Assembly (NCBI RefSeq): GCF_026162645.1
Contig: NZ_JAOTBE010000003.1
Coordinates: forward strand, 62,001 to 126,000
Direction: 5' to 3'
Length of the DNA: 64,000 nt
Origin: Paracoccus rhizosphaerae
GTDB taxonomy: Bacteria; Pseudomonadota; Alphaproteobacteria; Rhodobacterales; Rhodobacteraceae
In this document: in pieces, positions 2,325-45,126 of the stretch
Position numbering within the stretch: position 1 is the stretch's first letter
Layout of the letters: each line of letters begins with the position of its first letter
Translations under genes and position numbers: made by a program
Notes under the pieces: generated by a model
The model's database searches: none
What the model saw: the letters and a program-made list of their open reading frames with translations, nothing else
What the model was told of the DNA's origin: nothing

Positions 2325-2904
2325 CCGGTATGACCTCACTGATGATCTGGACGACGGCCTGCCGGGCGGCCTCGACGCTGTGGGTCGGGATAACCCAATC
2401 GGCGCGGGCTCGTTTTTCCATATCCGGCATCTGCCGTGCAAGGATCAAACGCAGGATGTCGGGGGTCATGCCCGGACGGGCCAGCACCCGCGCCGCCTGA
2501 GTTTCGGCATCGGTCGACACCACCGCCACCCCGTCGAGTTCGGGTGCGGCAGCACTTTCGAACAGCAACGGAATGTCCAGAACGACAAGCGGCGCTTCGC
2601 GGTGGCTGGACAGGAAAGCCTGCCGATCCTCGGCCACCAGAGGATGGACGATCGCCTCCAGCTGCGCCAGCGCGGCGGGGGCATGGCTGATGACCTGCTT
2701 CAACGCGTCGCGGTCAATGGCACCGCCTTGCAAGGCCGCAGGGAAGGCCGCGGCGACTGGCGCCACAGCCGCACCGTCCTTCGCATAAAGGCGATGAACA
2801 GCCTCGTCGGCGTCCCAGACGGGATGGCCGAGATCGCGGAACAACTGCGCCGTCGTCGACTTGCCCATGCCGATGCTGCCGGTCAGGCCAAGGCGGAAGG
2901 TCAT
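2317..2904 (-). CDS. coaE: Dephospho-CoA kinase
   Basis: 195 residues, the normal length. The P-loop [12 protein letters not shown] lies at residues 6-17, followed by the CoaE-typical [18 protein letters not shown] and [12 protein letters not shown] are also family blocks. It phosphorylates dephospho-CoA at the 3' hydroxyl of the ribose, the last step of coenzyme A synthesis, in the cytoplasm. Its ATG overlaps the stop of aroE by 4 bases and its end overlaps dnaQ, so all three genes appear translationally coupled. This aroE-coaE-dnaQ order is common in Rhodobacterales. Confidence 0.96.
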
Positions 2905-3755
2905 TCCAGCGCGACCCGCCGCGCCTCGTCGTCAACCTCGGGGCGCTGCCCGAACCAGCGCTCGAAGCCGGGGGCTGCCTGGTGCAGCAGCATACCCAAG
3001 CCGTCGACGATGTGACAGCCGCGGGCCTGAGCTTCAGCCAAGAAGGGCGTCATCAGCGGCGTGTAGACGAGGTCGGTCACGACTGCGCCTGGCGACAATG
3101 CGTCCAAGGGGATGCGCAGAGGCTGCTTCCCCTCCATCCCCAGCGATGTGGCGTTCACGACCGTCGTCGCGCCCTCCAGCATGTTGCCGATCTGCGCCCA
3201 GTCATAGACCACCAGCCTTGCGCCAAATTCGGCCTTGATCTGTTCGGCCCGCAGCCGCGTGCGGTTGGTGATCCGCAGCTCGGTAACGCCACTGTCCAAG
3301 AGAGATGCGACGACCGCGCGTGCGGCGCCGCCCGCGCCGATCACTGCGGCGGTGGATTTGTCGGGCGACCACTCCGGTGCGTTCTGCCGCAGATTGGCCA
3401 CGAAGCCATAGCCGTCAGTGTTGTCGGCATGGATCTTTCCGTCCGGGCGGAAGATCAGCGTGTTGGCAGCGCCGATCAGCGCGGCCCGGTCTGTTACCGT
3501 GTCGGCTAGGGTCAGAACGGCTTCCTTGTGCGGGATCGTGACGTTGGCCCCGACAAATCCCATGCGTGGCATGACGCGAAGCACCTCGGCCAAGTGTTCG
3601 GGCATGACCGGGATCGGGACGTAGTGTCCGCGCAGCCCGTATCGTGCCAGCCAATGCGTATGAAGGCGCGGCGAGCGGCTGTGCGCGATCGGCATGCCGA
3701 TGACGCCGGCAAGCGGGGCATGGCTGACATGGCTGGCGGGAAGTTCGGTCGTCAT
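2901..3755 (-). CDS. aroE: Shikimate dehydrogenase (NADP+)
   Basis: 284 residues. Substrate-site motifs HSRSP (about residue 25), NVTIPHKE with the catalytic Lys, and NTDGYGF are followed by the nucleotide-binding glycine loop GAGGAARAV, NRT (NADP phosphate contact) and VNATSLGM. It reduces 3-dehydroshikimate to shikimate in aromatic amino-acid synthesis. It is the first gene of a leftward operon, and its 5' end borders the proposed replication origin. A maf homologue, often found upstream of aroE in related genomes, is absent here; the origin region takes that place. Confidence 0.96.
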   Translation of the reverse strand: MTTELPASHVSHAPLAGVIGMPIAHSRSPRLHTHWLARYGLRGHYVPIPVMPEHLAEVLRVMPRMGFVGANVTIPHKEAVLTLADTVTDRAALIGAANTLIFRPDGKIHADNTDGYGFVANLRQNAPEWSPDKSTAAVIGAGGAARAVVASLLDSGVTELRITNRTRLRAEQIKAEFGARLVVYDWAQIGNMLEGATTVVNATSLGMEGKQPLRIPLDALSPGAVVTDLVYTPLMTPFLAEAQARGCHIVDGLGMLLHQAAPGFERWFGQRPEVDDEARRVALE

Positions 3756-4256
3756 CGAGCTTTCTGACTGGCTGCGGTCCGGCTTAGACTAGGTCGCCAG
3801 CCGCACGGAAAAAAGATCCATCGACCAGATTGGCTAACGTCTGTGACCGATGCGGCTCAGACCTTCAGCGGCAACATTGTGGACAAGTCGCTGAGGGAAT
3901 CGGGCCGGCGTCTGGGTGCAACCGCGTCAAGACCCTGTGTAGACTGGATTCAGCCACAGAACAGACAGGGTACACGAGCTACTTGTTCACATCTGGACAG
4001 TTTCATATGCCGCCTTCGTGAAGCTGTGGAGAAAACTGGCGCAGGATGATTATCCGCAAAATTATCCCCAGGCGATCTATATGTTAACAAAAGACTTTAC
4101 AGACCTGGCACAGATTTTCCCCGGCGTTATCCACAAGCGCTGATTCTGCGGAGATTCCGGTGAGCGGAATCCTTGTCCCTCCGTCCACAGGGCCTACTAC
4201 AACAACATTCCTTTCTTTCTTCTTCTTATTTAAGTGAGCAGGAAACGAGGTTCCCG
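3756..4256. other. oriC: Candidate chromosomal replication origin (oriC)
   Basis: About 500 bases without a credible gene between divergent aroE and hemJ. It holds a perfect DnaA box TTATCCACA (4127-4135) and near-consensus boxes TTATCCGCA (4050-4058), TTATCCCCA (4062-4070), TTCTCCACA on the minus strand (4025-4033) and TTGTCCACA on the minus strand (3878-3886). Weaker candidates sit at 3983-3991 and 4181-4189. An AT-rich stretch around 4072-4100, including GTTAAC, could be the unwinding element. Genes on both sides point away, parAB and two parS sites lie 3-7 kb to the right, and dnaA is elsewhere at 56 kb. No CtrA site was found. The origin call is inference from these features. Confidence 0.75.
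4025..4135. promoter_or_regulatory. Core DnaA-box cluster
   Basis: Four 9-mers within 111 bases: minus-strand TTCTCCACA at 4025-4033, plus-strand TTATCCGCA at 4050-4058, TTATCCCCA at 4062-4070 and the exact consensus TTATCCACA at 4127-4135. The second and third are spaced 12 bases start to start, compatible with cooperative DnaA loading. The sequence between the third and fourth boxes is the most AT-rich part of the region. Confidence 0.75.
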
Positions 4257-4703
4257 ATGCTCGACTGGCTTCTGCTGATCTATCCCTACGTGAAGGCCTT
4301 TCACGTCATGGCGGTAATTTCCTGGATGGCAGGTCTGTTCTATCTGCCGCGACTGTTCGTCTATCATTCCGAGAGACCGGCAGTTTCGGACGAGCCGGCG
4401 GGCAGTTTCGTGATCATGGAGGAGAAGCTTCTGCGGCTGATCATGAATCCGGCGATGATTGCGACCTGGATCAGCGGCCTGACTCTTGTCCTAACGCCAG
4501 GCATCGTCGACTGGTCGCTGGCATGGCCCTGGGTCAAGGCAGGCGCGGTCATCGCGATGACCTGGTTTCACATGTGGTGCGCCAGGGAACGGCGTCAATT
4601 GTCCGGCGGACAGGCCCAAAGTGGGCGGCGCTATCGGATGATGAACGAGGTGCCTACGCTTTTGATGATCGCCGTCGTTTCCGCCGTGATCGTGAAGTTC
4701 TGA
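4257..4703 (+). CDS. hemJ: Protoporphyrinogen IX oxidase HemJ
   Basis: About 148 residues from MLDWLLLIYPY; the ATG follows GGAAACGAGG. Four hydrophobic segments are visible. The conserved HemJ/UPF0093 features are present: the His in KAFHVMAVISWMAGLFYLPRLFVYH and the later LRLIMNPAMIATWISGL. HemJ oxidises protoporphyrinogen IX to protoporphyrin IX at the inner membrane in heme synthesis. hemE, often beside hemJ in relatives, is not here. The 5' leader contains a long pyrimidine tract (about 4208-4230). It is the first gene to the right of the candidate origin and runs towards rho. Confidence 0.9.
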   Translation: MLDWLLLIYPYVKAFHVMAVISWMAGLFYLPRLFVYHSERPAVSDEPAGSFVIMEEKLLRLIMNPAMIATWISGLTLVLTPGIVDWSLAWPWVKAGAVIAMTWFHMWCARERRQLSGGQAQSGRRYRMMNEVPTLLMIAVVSAVIVKF

Positions 4704-7380: not shown

Positions 7381-9240
7381 ATGTTCCACGTGAAACATTA
7401 CGATATAGCAGTTATCGGCGCGGGTCATGCAGGTCTGGAAGCCGCGACTGCAGCAGCACGCATGGGTGCGTCTGTCGCCCTGCTCACGATGCGTGAAGAT
7501 GACATCGGCACACTGTCATGCAACCCGGCAATCGGAGGCTTGGGAAAGGGTCACCTGGTTCGGGAGGTCGACGCGCTAGATGGCGTGATGGGGGTTCTAG
7601 CCGACTACGCCGGAATCCAATTCAGGATGTTGAACCGGAAAAAAGGCCCTGCCGTTCAGGGGCCGCGTGCGCAAATGGATCGTGCGATCTATCGCGCAGC
7701 CGCGCTTAAAACGATCAGAAACTACAAAAACGTTGATTTAATACTCGCTGAAATTACCGGCCTTCTGTTCAATGGAGACAAAATTACAGGTGTCTATGTT
7801 GCCGGCGATAACGTAGTACGTTCGTCTACTGTGGTCATCACAACCGGCACCTTCCTGAACGGTCGAATTCATGTCGGGAATGAAAGCCGGCCTGCCGGTC
7901 GGTGGGGCAACGACGCTTCATCTGGTCTAGCATCGGATTTGCAGCGTCTTGACCTGCCGATGGGGCGCTTGAAGACCGGAACGCCCCCCCGGCTTGACGG
8001 CCGGACAATTGCTTGGGGGAAGTTGGAAGATCAGAAGGGCGACGATGAACCTGTCATGTTTTCGTACTTGAACGATCGGCCAGTCAATGGGCAAATCTGT
8101 TGCGGAATTACGGAGACTAATGAAGAAACTCACGAGATCATCCGCCGGAACATCGCTAGATCCGCGATGTATGGAGGCCATATTTCAGGGCGAGGTCCCC
8201 GATACTGCCCGTCGATTGAGGACAAAGTGCTGCGTTTCGTGGACAAGTCTTCGCACCAGATATTTTTAGAGCCTGAGGGGTTGCAGGACCACACTGTTTA
8301 CCCCAATGGCATTTCCACTTCTTTGCCGCTTGATGTCCAAGAAGCATATGTCCGGTCGATACGCGGTCTAGAGCACGCCGCACTCCTTCAGCCGGGCTAT
8401 GCCGTCGAATACGACTACATCGACCCCACTGCGTTGACGAGGTCGTTGTCTGTAAAGGGATTCAACGGCCTGTATCTCGCTGGCCAGATAAATGGGACCA
8501 CAGGCTATGAAGAGGCTGCCGCTCAAGGCCTTGTAGCCGGCATAAATGCTGCGCAGATGGCACGAGGAGAAGAGCCGGTGATATTTAGCCGGACTGAGAG
8601 CTATATTGGTGTTCTTATTGACGACCTAGTTACCAAGGGAGTCACGGAGCCGTATCGTATGTTCACGTCACGAGCCGAGTTCCGACTGACATTGCGGGCC
8701 GACAACGCTGATCAACGGCTGACACCGAAGGGAATGCAAATCGGCGTCGTTTCGCCTGCAAGACAGCGCAGCTTCTTGGCGAGGCAAGACGCCTACGTGT
8801 CGGCTCGAGAAGCACTTTCAGTGAAGAGGTTCTCGCCGACCGAACTTCGCCGTGCCGGGGTGGATGTGAGACTCGACGGACAGATGCGGTCTGGTTTCAG
8901 CCTGCTAGGGTACCAGAATCTATCTGAAGCTACATTGACAGAAATCCTGCCTGAACTTCAAGAAATTTCACCGGGGACGAGAACTCAGCTCCGAAACGAC
9001 GCTCTTTATTCGCAGTATGCTGACCGGCAAGAGCGTGATGCAGCTCGTGTAAGGGAGAACGAAGGCCTCTCACTCACTCATGTTAACTATACAACACTCT
9101 CCGGTCTCTCGGGAGAGTTGCGAGATAAGCTCAGACTAAAAGCACCCGCAAATCTTGCGGAAGCTGCAGTTATTGAGGGTATGACGCCTGCTGCCTTGAA
9201 CCTGCTTGTCATCGCTGCTACCGCCCAACGGTCCCGATGA
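7381..9240 (+). CDS. mnmG: tRNA modification enzyme MnmG (GidA), FAD-dependent
   Basis: 619 residues. The Rossmann FAD motif [11 protein letters not shown] lies at residues 12-22, and [20 protein letters not shown] and [11 protein letters not shown] are MnmG signatures. It uses FAD, NADH and folate with MnmE to build the cmnm5 group on U34. The first codons (MFHVKH) are themselves a parS site, which fixes the start. It overlaps rsmG by four bases (ATGA). Codon use is AT-richer than in most of the window. Confidence 0.97.
7382..7397. promoter_or_regulatory. parS: parS centromere site 1 (inside mnmG start)
   Basis: Sixteen bases, TGTTCCACGTGAAACA, differing at one base from the perfect palindromic parS consensus TGTTTCACGTGAAACA. 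It spans the second base of the mnmG start codon through codon 6 and is translated as part of MFHVKH. ParB, encoded 3.2 kb downstream, is expected to load here. Confidence 0.93.
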
Positions 9241-9833
9241 GCAATGTTTCACGTGAAACAGAGGAAAAACTCCAAGAGTTCCTTGCAACTTTATTGAAGT
9301 GGAACCCGAGAATTAACCTTGTTGCACCCGATACACTTCAGCAAGCGCGGTTTCGCCACGTCGACGACTGCCTGCAACTTGCAGATTTAGCATCCAAGCC
9401 AATGGGCGATTGGGTTGATCTTGGAAGCGGCGGTGGATTTCCTGGCCTGATTGTGGCTATAGCGATGCGGGATGAGCCCGTTAAATTCACCTTGGTTGAG
9501 AGCGATACGCGGAAAAGCGCATTTTTACGCACGGTCGCACGGGATTTAGATCTTCCTAATGTCGTGATCAAGGCGGAGCGGGCAGAGAAAATTCCGCCGA
9601 TGCATGCGTCACAAATTTCTGCACGAGCGCTCGCTCCTCTTGATCGTTTGCTGGCCATGGTGGCGCATCATATCAAGCCGAACGGAACCGCTTGGCTGAT
9701 GAAAGGGCGCAGATGGCAAGAGGAATGCGAAGCGGCAAGACGTCTTTGGTCGTTTGATGTTGAACCGTTTCAAAGTAAAACCGACCCAGACGCTGCGATT
9801 CTGAAGATTACCGGAGTATCGGCCCATGGTTGA
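9237..9833 (+). CDS. rsmG: 16S rRNA (guanine527-N7)-methyltransferase RsmG (GidB)
   Basis: 198 residues. The class I methyltransferase SAM-binding motif [18 protein letters not shown] is followed by [17 protein letters not shown] and later [13 protein letters not shown], all typical of RsmG. It methylates G527 of 16S rRNA. The ATG overlaps the mnmG stop (ATGA), and its end overlaps parA by 8 bases. Codons 3-8 (NVSRET) are encoded by the second parS site. Confidence 0.96.
9245..9260. promoter_or_regulatory. parS: parS centromere site 2 (inside rsmG start)
   Basis: Perfect 16-base palindrome TGTTTCACGTGAAACA, identical to the bacterial chromosomal parS consensus. It lies 9 bases after the start of rsmG and encodes part of NVSRET. 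It is 1863 bases from site 1 and about 570 bases upstream of parA. Confidence 0.96.
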
Positions 9834-10611
9834 TCAACAAATCATTGCCATTGCCAACCAGAAGGGCGGAGTGGGTAAGACAACAACTGCCGTCAATCTG
9901 GGCGCAGCCCTTGCGGAAGTCGGCATCCCAACAATTTTGGTTGATCTAGACCCACAAGGCAATGCCTCGACCGGACTGGGTATCGAGGCAGACGAACGTC
10001 ATTTTACTGTCTATGACTTACTAACGGGCGATGTCGATCTTGCGAAGGTGGCTGTTGAAACCGACATCGCCAATCTGAAGTTGGTTCCTTCGACGTCGGA
10101 CCTTGCCTCTGCGGATGTTCAACTGGCGCAGGTCGTGGACCGGACGCGTCTCTTGGAAAAGCAGTTGAAGGCGGCCCCCGAGGGAACGGTCGTTCTGATC
10201 GACTGCCCGCCGGCTTTGGGCCTGCTGACGGTCAATGCCATGGTCGCCGCCACCAGCGTCCTAGTCCCTTTGCAGGCGGAATTTTATGCCTTGGAAGGAC
10301 TGTCGCAGCTTCTTGCGACGGTCAAGCAGGTCCGGCACGGTGCCAACCCGCGCTTGCGGGTGAACGGGATCTTGCTCACTATGTCTGATTATCGCAATAA
10401 CCTGTCTCAGCAGGTCGAGGCCGATGCCCGTGAGACATTGGGTGATCTTGTCTATACGACCGTGATTCCCCGAAATGTGCGGGTGTCCGAGGCACCATCG
10501 CACGCGCAGCCAGTTCTCGCCTATGATCCACTGTCGAAAGGCAGTATTGCTTACCGAAAGTTTGCGTCCGAATTTGTCGGCCGCTTGAAGCTGGTGTCGG
10601 AGAACGCATGA
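9826..10611 (+). CDS. parA: Chromosome partitioning ATPase ParA
   Basis: 261 residues. The deviant Walker A motif NQKGGVGKTTTAVNLG lies near the N-terminus, followed by LVDLDPQGNAST and IDCPPALGLLTVNAM. There is no N-terminal helix-turn-helix, so it is the short chromosomal (Soj-like) type. It binds DNA non-specifically when ATP-bound and positions ParB-parS complexes. Its start overlaps rsmG by 8 bases and its stop overlaps parB by 4, so the segregation genes share the mnmG-rsmG transcript. Confidence 0.97.
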   Translation: MVDQQIIAIANQKGGVGKTTTAVNLGAALAEVGIPTILVDLDPQGNASTGLGIEADERHFTVYDLLTGDVDLAKVAVETDIANLKLVPSTSDLASADVQLAQVVDRTRLLEKQLKAAPEGTVVLIDCPPALGLLTVNAMVAATSVLVPLQAEFYALEGLSQLLATVKQVRHGANPRLRVNGILLTMSDYRNNLSQQVEADARETLGDLVYTTVIPRNVRVSEAPSHAQPVLAYDPLSKGSIAYRKFASEFVGRLKLVSENA

Positions 10612-11504
10612 TGGCTGAAAACAAGGTGGCGAGGCGGGGGCTGGGGCGGGGGCTGTCAGCCTTGATGGCTGATATGGACATGGGGACGGATTCGCAGGCT
10701 GATAAAGCCCGTGATCAGACGATGGTCCCGATCGAACAGATTACTGCCAATCCAGATCAGCCACGGCGCAACTTCGACCCTGAAGCGTTACAGGAACTTG
10801 CTGCTTCATTGAAGCAACGCGGCGTTCTTCAACCATTGATTGTCCGGCCTCATCCTTCGGATCAGGGGCTCTATCAGATCGTCGCGGGCGAGCGTCGCTG
10901 GCGGGCGGCACAAATGGCGCAACTTCACGAGGTGCCCGTCATCATCAGGCAGATGAGCGACAACGAAGTTCTGGAAGTCGCCATCATCGAGAACATCCAG
11001 CGTGCCGATCTCAATGCCATCGAAGAGGCTGCGTCATTCCGGCAACTCATGGATCGCTTCGGGCACACGCAAGAGCGGCTTGCCGAGGCCTTGAACAAGA
11101 GCCGCAGCCACATTGCCAACCTGCTCCGTTTGCTGTCGTTGCCCGATCCTGTCCAGGACATGGTCAAAGACGGCAAGCTGACGGCGGGACATGCTCGCGC
11201 CTTGATCACGGCGCCCAATGCTGCGCAACTGGCACGGAAGGTCTCGGAGAAGGGACTGTCGGTGCGAGAGACCGAAGAGATGGTCCGCAAGTTGGCCCAG
11301 CCGGGTGATGCACAGCCGAAGCGGGCGAACCGCAGTTCTGCCAAGGATGCTGATACACGTGCGCTGGAGGCTGATCTGTCGGCGCATTTGAAGATGGGCG
11401 TCCAGATCGACCACCAAGGGACGGGCGGTGGTCAGATGATCATCTCGTATAAGGATCTTGATCAACTGGATCGACTTTGCCAGATGCTAGGCGGACGCGG
11501 CTGA
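10608..11504 (+). CDS. parB: Chromosome partitioning CTPase ParB
   Basis: 298 residues. After a basic start (RRGLGRGLSALMAD) the ParB/Srx domain shows the CTP-binding blocks NPDQPRRNF and GERRWRAAQ and the motif ENIQRADLNAIEEA. A helix-turn-helix for parS recognition follows (LAEALNKSRSHIANLLRLL), and the C-terminal part is a dimerisation domain. It loads at parS and spreads as a clamp. Two adjacent ATG codons allow a start three bases later. A bidirectional stem-loop follows the stop. Confidence 0.97.
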   Translation: MMAENKVARRGLGRGLSALMADMDMGTDSQADKARDQTMVPIEQITANPDQPRRNFDPEALQELAASLKQRGVLQPLIVRPHPSDQGLYQIVAGERRWRAAQMAQLHEVPVIIRQMSDNEVLEVAIIENIQRADLNAIEEAASFRQLMDRFGHTQERLAEALNKSRSHIANLLRLLSLPDPVQDMVKDGKLTAGHARALITAPNAAQLARKVSEKGLSVRETEEMVRKLAQPGDAQPKRANRSSAKDADTRALEADLSAHLKMGVQIDHQGTGGGQMIISYKDLDQLDRLCQMLGGRG

Positions 11505-29813: not shown

Positions 29814-30631
29814 GCGCCACGTCATCGGTGCGCGGTTGGCTGACGGCCTTCGCGGGAATCTCGCGGCGCGAGACCCTGCGCTTCGTCAACCAGCGCGGCC
29901 GCTTCCTCGCGGCGCTGGTGCGGCCGCTGGTCTGGCTGTTCATCTTCGCCGCCGGATTCCGGGCGGTGCTGGGCCTGTCGATCACGCCACCCTACCAGAC
30001 CTACATCCTCTACGAGGTCTATGTCACGCCGGGCCTTGTCGCGATGATCCAGCTGTTCAACGGCATGCAGTCGTCCCTGTCGATGGTCTATGATCGTGAA
30101 ACCGGTGCCATGCGGACGCTGCTGGTCAGCCCGTTCCCGCGCTGGTTCCTGCTGGGGTCGAAACTGGTCGCGGGTGTCGTCGTGTCGATCATCCAGGTCT
30201 ATACCTTCCTGGCCATCGCCTGGTTCTGGGGGATCGAACCGCCGCTGTGGGGCTATGTCGCCGTGATCCCCGCGCTGATCCTGTCGGGGCTGATGCTGGG
30301 GGCGATGGGGCTGTTCCTCTCCAGCGCTATCCGGCAGCTGGAAAACTTCGCCGGAGTCATGAACTTCGTGATCTTCCCGATGTTCTTCGCGTCCTCGGCG
30401 CTTTATCCACTGTGGCGGATGAACGAAAGCTCACCCCTGCTGCACGACATCTGCGTGGTGAACCCGTTCACGCATGCAGTCGAGCTGATCCGGTTCGCGC
30501 TCTATCTGCAGGTCAACTGGACGGCGCTGGCGGTCGTCCTAGGATGTTTGGCGGGGTTCTTCGGCGCCGCCGTCTTCATGTATGATCCGCAAAAGGGCCT
30601 CTGGGCCCGCCGGAAAGGAGGTCCCGGATGA
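29810..30631 (+). CDS. ABC-2 type transporter permease (PQQ-associated)
   Basis: 273 residues with six hydrophobic segments. ABC-2 landmarks include the N-terminal FVNQRGRFLAALVRPLVWLF, the middle block MIQLFNGMQSSLSMVYDRETGAMRTLLVSPF and NPFTHAVELIRFALY near the end. It forms the membrane channel for the ATPase encoded just upstream (ATGA overlap). ABC-2 permeases usually export; the co-operonic binding protein makes the direction of transport an open question. Confidence 0.92.
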   Translation: MSATSSVRGWLTAFAGISRRETLRFVNQRGRFLAALVRPLVWLFIFAAGFRAVLGLSITPPYQTYILYEVYVTPGLVAMIQLFNGMQSSLSMVYDRETGAMRTLLVSPFPRWFLLGSKLVAGVVVSIIQVYTFLAIAWFWGIEPPLWGYVAVIPALILSGLMLGAMGLFLSSAIRQLENFAGVMNFVIFPMFFASSALYPLWRMNESSPLLHDICVVNPFTHAVELIRFALYLQVNWTALAVVLGCLAGFFGAAVFMYDPQKGLWARRKGGPG

Positions 30632-44133: not shown

Positions 44134-45126
44134 ATGCGCGCCGACCAGATCCTTCACCCGACCGAGGCTGGACTTTACTGCCCGCCCGGAGATTTTCACA
44201 TCGACCCGGTCCGCCCGGTCCCCCGCGCGCTGATCACGCATGGGCATGGCGATCATGCCCGTGCGGGCCATGGCGCGGTCATGGCCACGCAGCAAACGCT
44301 GGACATCATGGCCATCCGCTATGGCGAGGATTTCACCCGGACCCGTCAGGCCGCTGATGGCGTGACCCGGGTCGGGAACGTCGAGGTCAGTTTCCACCCC
44401 GCCGGGCACATCCTGGGATCGGCACAGATCGCGATCACGCCCGACAAGGGGCCGAAGATCGTCGTGTCCGGCGACTATTGTCGTGCGCCGAACCCCGTCT
44501 GCGCGTCCTATGAACCCGTGCCCTGCGACATCTTCGTGACCGAGGCGACCTTCGGCCTGCCGGTGTTCCGCCACCCCGACCCGCTGGCCGAAATGACGCG
44601 CCTCATCGCCAGCATGGCCGAGTTTCCAGAACGGCCACACCTGATCGGCGCCTATGCCCTGGGCAAGGCGCAACGTGTCATTGCGCTGGCGCGGCAGGCG
44701 GGCATCGATGGGCCGATCGCCATTCACGGCGCGCTGCAGCGGCTGTGCGATTTTCACGTGGAACAGGGGATCGACCTCGGCCCGTTGGTTCCCGCCACGG
44801 CCAAGGAGGTGGACGCGCAATTGGTCATCGCGCCGCCCTCGGCCTTCGCCAGCGCCTGGGTGCAGCGGTTCCAGGACCCGGTGATCGGCTTTGCCTCGGG
44901 GTGGATGGCCGTCCGCGCCCGCGCCCGACAGCGCGGGGTCGAGCTGCCGCTGGTCATCAGCGATCATGTGGACTGGCCGCAGGTGACCCAAACTATTCGC
45001 GAACTGTCCCCCGACGAGGTCTGGATCACCCACGGGACCGAGGATGGCTTGATGCGCTGGTGCGAGATGGAGGGCTTTGCCGCCCGCCCCCTGCGCCTTG
45101 TCGGCTACGAGGACGAGCCCGAATGA
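44134..45126 (+). CDS. Ligase-associated DNA exonuclease, metallo-beta-lactamase fold
   Basis: 330 residues. The MBL metal motif THGHGDHARAGH is near residue 35; HPAGHILGSAQI and VVSGDYCRAPN follow, then the beta-CASP-like region and a late SDHVDWPQV and THGTEDGL. It is the SNM1/Pso2-like nuclease that starts the exonuclease-ligase-helicase-phosphoesterase repair operon. Substrate in vivo is unknown. ATGA overlap with the ligase. Confidence 0.92.
   Translation: MRADQILHPTEAGLYCPPGDFHIDPVRPVPRALITHGHGDHARAGHGAVMATQQTLDIMAIRYGEDFTRTRQAADGVTRVGNVEVSFHPAGHILGSAQIAITPDKGPKIVVSGDYCRAPNPVCASYEPVPCDIFVTEATFGLPVFRHPDPLAEMTRLIASMAEFPERPHLIGAYALGKAQRVIALARQAGIDGPIAIHGALQRLCDFHVEQGIDLGPLVPATAKEVDAQLVIAPPSAFASAWVQRFQDPVIGFASGWMAVRARARQRGVELPLVISDHVDWPQVTQTIRELSPDEVWITHGTEDGLMRWCEMEGFAARPLRLVGYEDEPE

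Follow-up and report, generated by a model that had tools for sequence, protein, structure and literature searches.

The window, i.e., the whole 64,000-nucleotide stretch of DNA analysed here, corresponds to bases 62001–126000 of contig C125 (145,865 bp) in a draft Paracoccus genome of 4.06 Mb in 191 contigs; the best named relatives of its HemJ are from this genus. Near its left end, the divergent genes aroE and hemJ bound an intergenic gap which the first-pass annotation had proposed to be the chromosomal origin of replication, oriC. Besides these two genes, rho and genes for a ParA-like ATPase, ParB, and DnaA were named within the window in an NCBIfam search, the HemJ score of 137.5 bits being below the cut-off of 138.05; no hits were obtained in Rfam and tRNA scans of the window. 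The features discussed below are listed in Table 1.

Table 1. Features at and around the aroE/hemJ gap (window positions, except for hemE)
Feature	Position	Strand	Remarks
Proposed oriC region, divergent aroE/hemJ intergenic gap	3756..4256		proposed
aroE, left boundary gene	2901..3755	-	start at 3755; NCBIfam
DnaA box TTGTCCACA	3878..3886	-	1 mismatch
Weak DnaA box TTGTTCACA	3983..3991	+	2 mismatches; alignment consensus TCCACA at same place
DnaA box TTCTCCACA	4025..4033	-	1 mismatch
DnaA box TTATCCGCA	4050..4058	+	1 mismatch
DnaA box TTATCCCCA	4062..4070	+	1 mismatch; alignment consensus TTATcCACA
DnaA box TTATCCACA	4127..4135	+	perfect
Trio-proximal DnaA box CCGTCCACA	4181..4189	+	3 mismatches; core TCCACA intact
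GC spacer GGGC	4190..4193	+	4 bp
Repeat CTA-CTA-CAA-CAA-CAT	4194..4208	+	proposed variant DnaA-trio; trio strand would be minus
Least stable 45-mer duplex	4194..4238		proposed DNA unwinding element; predicted stability
hemJ, right boundary gene	4257..4703	+	NCBIfam
parS-like site	7382..7397		1 mismatch
parS TGTTTCACGTGAAACA	9245..9260		perfect
ParA-like partition ATPase gene	9826..10611	+	no NCBIfam model over its cut-off
parB	10608..11504	+	NCBIfam
dnaA	55905..57446	-	NCBIfam
hemE, own genome (G000)	C102:17763-18773		distant from origin

One perfect and four one-mismatch DnaA boxes had been reported in the first-pass annotation within a gene-free, AT-richer gap between divergent genes; all five were confirmed in place, and the GC content of the gap is 52.5% versus 65.0%. 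The 64-kb window contains six boxes with at most one mismatch, the sixth being located at 30403, outside the gap. This total is not unusual, since shuffled sequences had 3.98 boxes on average and 21 of 100 reached six; the clustering is beyond chance, with a maximum of two boxes per 258 bp in 200 simulated first-order Markov windows. Six perfect boxes are present in the 4.06-Mb draft, and only the one in the window lies in a 3-kb locus with a further box of at most one mismatch. No second box cluster was found on contig C125. The gap region, searched as DNA against the own genome, matched itself and a single 37-base stretch of 84% identity on another contig (C169:90018-90054), corresponding to query positions 86–122.

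The gap also carries five GANTC sites within its 501 bp (at 3897, 3947, 4142, 4153, and 4167), versus 90 in the 64-kb window, and the 80 hemJ loci described below have on average 2.5 such sites per 500 bp upstream of hemJ versus 0.85 elsewhere in these loci. GANTC is presumably a CcrM-type site, and methylation control of initiation may be possible.

The conservation of this arrangement was analysed in the best 80 of 486 HemJ loci confirmed in a scan of genome contigs; these loci are related, so that the counts given for them are not independent. At least one box with at most one mismatch occurs within 800 nt upstream of hemJ in all 80 of these best 80 of 486 loci, and at least three boxes in 67 of them, with only a single box in L069, L095, L110, and L111. 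In 76 of the 80 fetched loci (best 80 of 486), the gap upstream of hemJ is strictly the densest 500 bp for boxes, and the other four (L069, L095, L111, and L119) are ties. An alignment of 55 Paracoccus rows, comprising 54 of the 80 loci and the window, revealed that the best conserved block adjoins hemJ (approximately 4183–4213) and that positions 4136–4160 are poorly conserved. At the leftmost box, TGTGGA on the plus strand is retained in at least 95% of the rows.

Next to hemJ, a degenerate DnaA box, which reads CTATCCACA or TTATCCACA in several relatives, is followed by a short GC spacer and a trinucleotide repeat. The 45-mer beginning exactly at the repeat ranks first among 63,956 in the window for predicted weakness of the duplex, so that a thermally weak element, as judged by predicted stability only, lies beside the boxes. 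The 25-base block of box, spacer, and repeat occurs once in the own genome when up to three mismatches are allowed. A run of at least five C[A/T]N units was found 130–30 nt before hemJ in 43 of 81 Rhodobacteraceae regions versus 0.9% of shuffles, and among the remaining regions nine have four units, 12 have three, and 17 only two. Of the 43 regions with at least five units, 36 begin the run with CTA, 32 have CAA as the third unit, and 39 have CAT as the fifth. The idea of a strict CTA trio was discarded, as 1 of the 81 regions has a run of at least three CTA units next to a box.

To the right of hemJ, a perfect parS and a one-mismatch site lie close to parAB. In all six relatives searched, parS sites with at most one mismatch are confined to about 22 kb around hemJ, G007 having four such sites and every other relative two. 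A weak parS-like palindrome with three mismatches was also observed at window position 44750. The dnaA gene is located 52 kb from the box cluster, and none of the six boxes of the window is near it. The distance between hemJ and dnaA in relatives is 334 kb in G007, 418 kb in G006, 629 kb in G013, and 871 kb in G011.

The proposal of an oriC between aroE and hemJ is thus supported by the intergenic clustering of DnaA boxes, the weakest predicted duplex of the window, the nearby parS and parAB, and conservation in 80 of 80 loci (best 80 of 486). On these sequence features, it is very probable that positions 3756–4256 are the chromosomal oriC of this Paracoccus. The following way of opening is proposed for it. 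DnaA-ATP would bind the boxes at 3878–4135 and the weaker site adjoining hemJ; from the last box, at 4181–4189, a DnaA filament would grow across the GC spacer and along the repeat at 4194–4208, on its minus strand; the segment 4194–4238 would then melt, and helicase would be loaded there for two forks. ParB bound to parS 3–5 kb away would subsequently separate the new origins. The step in which a DnaA filament forms on the 4194–4208 repeat appears reasonably likely.

The repeat departs from the published rule for DnaA-trios, in which the BUS program looks for a box with at most two mismatches and at least three trios with a middle A, as described in the available text of PMC8287927. The better of the two boxes before the repeat, at 4181–4189, has three mismatches, and the other, at 4173–4181, has four; the GGGC spacer of 4 bp lies within the permitted 0–16 bp; and two CTA units at 4194–4199 are followed by CAA CAA CAT rather than by a third consecutive middle-A trio. 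An arrangement that follows the rule occurs instead at 4127–4148, where TTATCCACA is followed after 4 nt by CTG-ATT-CTG, and such arrangements are present somewhere in the 500-bp regions of 56 of 81 loci versus 13% of shuffles.

The origin could be located here and be unwound elsewhere, for example at 4127–4148, with the repeat at 4194 being a spacer or leader feature. We regard this alternative as unlikely, albeit a serious one: it accords with the published rule and with the three mismatches of the trio-proximal box, but the poor conservation of 4136–4160, the position of the best conserved block at about 4183–4213, and the start of the weakest duplex at 4194 speak against it. The analysis of the class Alphaproteobacteria, in which a related repeat was looked for upstream of hemE, bears on the same question from both sides.

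A family search identified hemE in 121 of 144 class genomes, evenly drawn. The set analysed consisted of 117 hemE loci, namely 30 from the family search, 80 fetched upstream regions, and seven further loci, six of them from genomes of the family search and one from G058, outside that search; the matched genomes G054, G067, G081, G125, and G164 were left out. All but L298 and L306 could be anchored on the HemE N-terminal motif, and of the resulting 115 loci 66 have at least two DnaA boxes upstream of hemE. Of these 66 loci, 15 contain A-C-N runs (equivalent in phase to C-N-A) of four or more units, compared to 0.2 expected from block shuffles, which is the largest excess among 16 classes; the classes AA. 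(12 observed versus 4.3 expected), CA. (7 versus 0.1), TT. (9 versus 2.6), and TA. (8 versus 1.9) are also raised. C-N-A runs of at least four units were found in 16 of the 66 loci, versus 1 of 66 for their reverse complements and 0 of 66 for both one shuffle and far-upstream stretches, so that the repeat exceeds its controls class-wide, which again argues against unwinding elsewhere. The other 50 loci lack a C-N-A run of four units, many of them having, by eye, shorter or out-of-phase versions. Two AT-rich class genomes, with 25% and 31% GC in these loci (L200 and L202), carry CAACAACAACAACAA before hemE.

The repeat did not become clearer when the loci were divided according to their number of boxes. 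Of the 49 hemE loci with fewer than two boxes, 6 also have C-N-A runs of at least four units, and runs of at least three units are present in 30 of 66 loci with at least two boxes, 10 of 21 with one box, and 10 of 28 with none. The near-equal frequency of runs of three with and without boxes speaks for the alternative of unwinding elsewhere; either divergent origins escape the box threshold, or the link between repeat and boxes is looser than supposed.

The units in the 16 loci with C-N-A runs of at least four are CAA (45), CTA (22), CCA (10), and CGA (1); therefore, the base that is fixed in the Bacillus subtilis trio is the free one in this class. Upstream of hemE in three Rhodobacteraceae genomes, including the own genome, neither boxes nor the repeat were found, and since hemE is bare upstream in all three Rhodobacteraceae looked at, the element appears to follow the origin rather than hemE.

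The initiator protein differs at the corresponding contact. Alignment of the Paracoccus DnaA to the solved chain 8btg, which we take to be the B. subtilis DnaA of PMC10721633, since it fits the numbering of that work, placed a Tyr (FMYRF) in the column of B. subtilis Asn187, the position being counted by hand along the alignment. Among 27 class genomes searched, 25 had a dnaA locus and 23 of the encoded proteins were readable at this column, which holds Tyr in 20 (including three Paracoccus, the own one among them), Phe in two, and Leu in one, with no Asn or Gln among the 23. Other solved DnaA chains have Asn (2z4r, presumably from T. maritima) or Gln (1l8q, presumably from A. aeolicus) in this column. 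In B. subtilis, Asn187 contacts the middle base of the trio, at which cytosine works better than G or T, according to the available text of PMC10721633. One could hypothesise that residue and repeat changed together, the trio register being set by analogy and only three DnaAs being exceptions, too few for a test of covariation.

A tentative reading of these data is that the DnaA-trio of alphaproteobacteria has been re-coded to 3'-GNT-5', in which the outer bases are fixed and the middle one is free, with Tyr in DnaA in place of Asn187. As part of this reading, and put forward with equal caution, the initiator and the origin could have changed their single-stranded DNA code together. If true, current BUS finders would miss such origins or misplace them. 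The variant repeat is the part worth following, because deviant trios had been suspected (PMC8287927) and the middle base had been tied to Asn187 (PMC10721633), as far as the available portions of these papers go; the location of the origin is ordinary for the class, in which origins bordering on a heme gene are to be expected.

Whether replication starts at this locus or elsewhere was further assessed from strand polarity. The GC skew is near zero along contig C125 of the 191-contig draft, and its cumulative minimum falls at -40.7 kb in window coordinates, about 45 kb to the left of the region. No clear switch was observed for GC and AT skew along C125, or for GC, AT, and third-codon-position skew in sampled stretches of G007 and G013. 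GC skew is also insufficient in several alphaproteobacteria, as reported in the available text of PMC1914354. Because GC skew cannot decide on the own contig, relatives in which dnaA lies far from hemJ were used. When octamers were compared between the two sides of hemJ in sampled stretches of G007 and G013, GGGCAGGG ranked first in both genomes, and we take this octamer to be the KOPS sequence of FtsK. The KOPS counts and fits in relatives rest on the matches listed, at most 100 sites per genome, and G023 is not among them.

Among the matches listed for G007, 20 KOPS are forward and 96 reverse to the left of hemJ (780 kb), and 30 are forward and 10 reverse between hemJ and dnaA (1114 kb). A binomial fit to these matches gave -75.8 for a break at hemJ, -96.7 for one beside dnaA, and -67.1 for the best point, so that hemJ outperforms dnaA by about 21 log units. 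When both strands are fitted, the listed matches change polarity best at 955 kb (923–983 kb within 3 log units), at a distance of 175 kb from hemJ and of 159 kb from dnaA; the signed counts reach their minimum at 823–847 kb. A change point at 983 kb obtained from one-strand KOPS density was replaced by these two-strand fits, which still do not coincide with hemJ. To the right of hemJ, at 822–1002 kb (L316–L324), KOPS polarity is lost, with 10 forward and seven reverse sites up to 1000 kb among the matches listed.

The listed matches of G011 comprise two forward and 22 reverse KOPS to the left of hemJ (211 kb), and 98 forward and 22 reverse from there to 883 kb, where the forward listing ends. 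Their best two-strand change point is at 359 kb (224–361 kb within 3 log units), 148 kb from hemJ, with a fit of -59.7 for this point versus -64.1 for hemJ; dnaA, at 1082 kb, is more than 700 kb from the polarity change. A zone of lost polarity similar to that of G007 was observed at 211–360 kb, again among the matches listed. In G013, for which only samples were counted, the KOPS counts turn at about 1.07–1.2 Mb, with hemJ at 1.22 Mb and dnaA at 1.85 Mb.

On the own contig, three forward and 13 reverse KOPS are located to the left of the boxes and eight forward and two reverse to the right, and the cumulative minimum of these 26 sites lies at -14.3 to -11 kb, 15–18 kb to the left of the boxes. 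In pooled Paracoccus loci, forward KOPS outnumber reverse ones already from 5.6 kb to the left of hemJ, and in a pooled test of the 10 kb flanking hemJ on each side, the switch did not coincide with the boxes. KOPS polarity therefore speaks against dnaA as the origin, but next to hemJ there is a mixed zone extending over up to about 175 kb, and the polarity does not position the origin at the boxes. The precise location is assigned on account of the clustered boxes, the weak duplex, the parS sites, and conservation.

It is very unlikely that replication starts at dnaA or elsewhere within about 200 kb, with the cluster serving DnaA titration or regulation. Outside this class, origins are commonly found beside dnaA, and the polarity changes displaced from hemJ in G007 and G011 and from the boxes on the own contig would suit such a start, but dnaA lacks boxes with at most one mismatch nearby in the window, explains the G007 polarity far worse than hemJ, and lies far from the change in G011, while parS is found at hemJ and the weakest duplex in the only box cluster of C125. 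The claim of the first-pass annotation that replication starts here rather than at dnaA 52 kb away is accordingly supported, the KOPS polarity of G007 fitting hemJ far better among the matches listed. It is still less likely that the gap is a promoter region under DnaA control, serving hemJ/rho or aroE, and not an origin: it does lie between divergent genes, and DnaA regulates promoters in other bacteria, but boxes and repeat are found upstream of hemE in the class and of hemJ in Rhodobacteraceae, following the locus and not one gene, and parS agrees with an origin.

The oriC proposed here resembles Caulobacter Cori and the Rickettsia origin, which are described at the hemE–COG1806 boundary in the available text of PMC1914354, in having DnaA boxes and an AT-rich stretch at a heme-gene boundary. 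Unlike Caulobacter Cori, it is bounded by aroE and hemJ instead of hemE and COG1806, the own hemE being on another contig, and no CtrA sites of the TTAA-N7-TTAA type, a feature of Cori, were found in the window. Within the same family as Paracoccus, Ori-Finder predictions of oriC have been made for 101 Rhodobacteraceae on the basis of the GC-disparity minimum, the local GC minimum, proximity to parAB, and DnaA boxes (PMC6699656); the available text of that work does not mention aroE or hem, and its supplements may list the same site. OriC1 of Rhodobacter sphaeroides was located by cumulative GC skew together with replication and partition loci, and is marked in cells by ParB1, the boundary genes not being given in the text compared (PMC6315104).

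A description of the repeat was not found among the papers listed from the open-licence literature on oriC, DnaA-trios, or the basal unwinding system of alphaproteobacteria, Caulobacter, Rhodobacter, and Paracoccus, in so far as its text was available, and the class predictions of PMC8287927 may contain it. According to the text available, that work did not detect trios in 15% of genomes and suspected that deviant ones lacking the middle adenine exist. The layout in B. subtilis and H. pylori is a box, a GC-rich motif, and 5'-CTA-3' complementing 3'-GAT-5', with GGCC between DnaA box 7 and the unwinding element in B. subtilis (PMC8235120, available text). The Paracoccus locus is similar to these trio systems, as far as they are described in the portions compared of PMC8287927, PMC10721633, PMC8235120, and PMC6669920, in the succession of a box, a GC spacer, a trinucleotide repeat in the same orientation, and an AT-rich unwinding element. 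It differs from the B. subtilis trio in that the middle base on the trio strand is not fixed as A, with CNA runs in the class and mostly CAA or CAT after the first unit in Rhodobacteraceae, and in that the class DnaA has Tyr where Asn187 of B. subtilis contacts this base. In a class with such a relaxed middle base and an altered contact residue, the rules of origin opening would become directly testable by swaps of residue and repeat.
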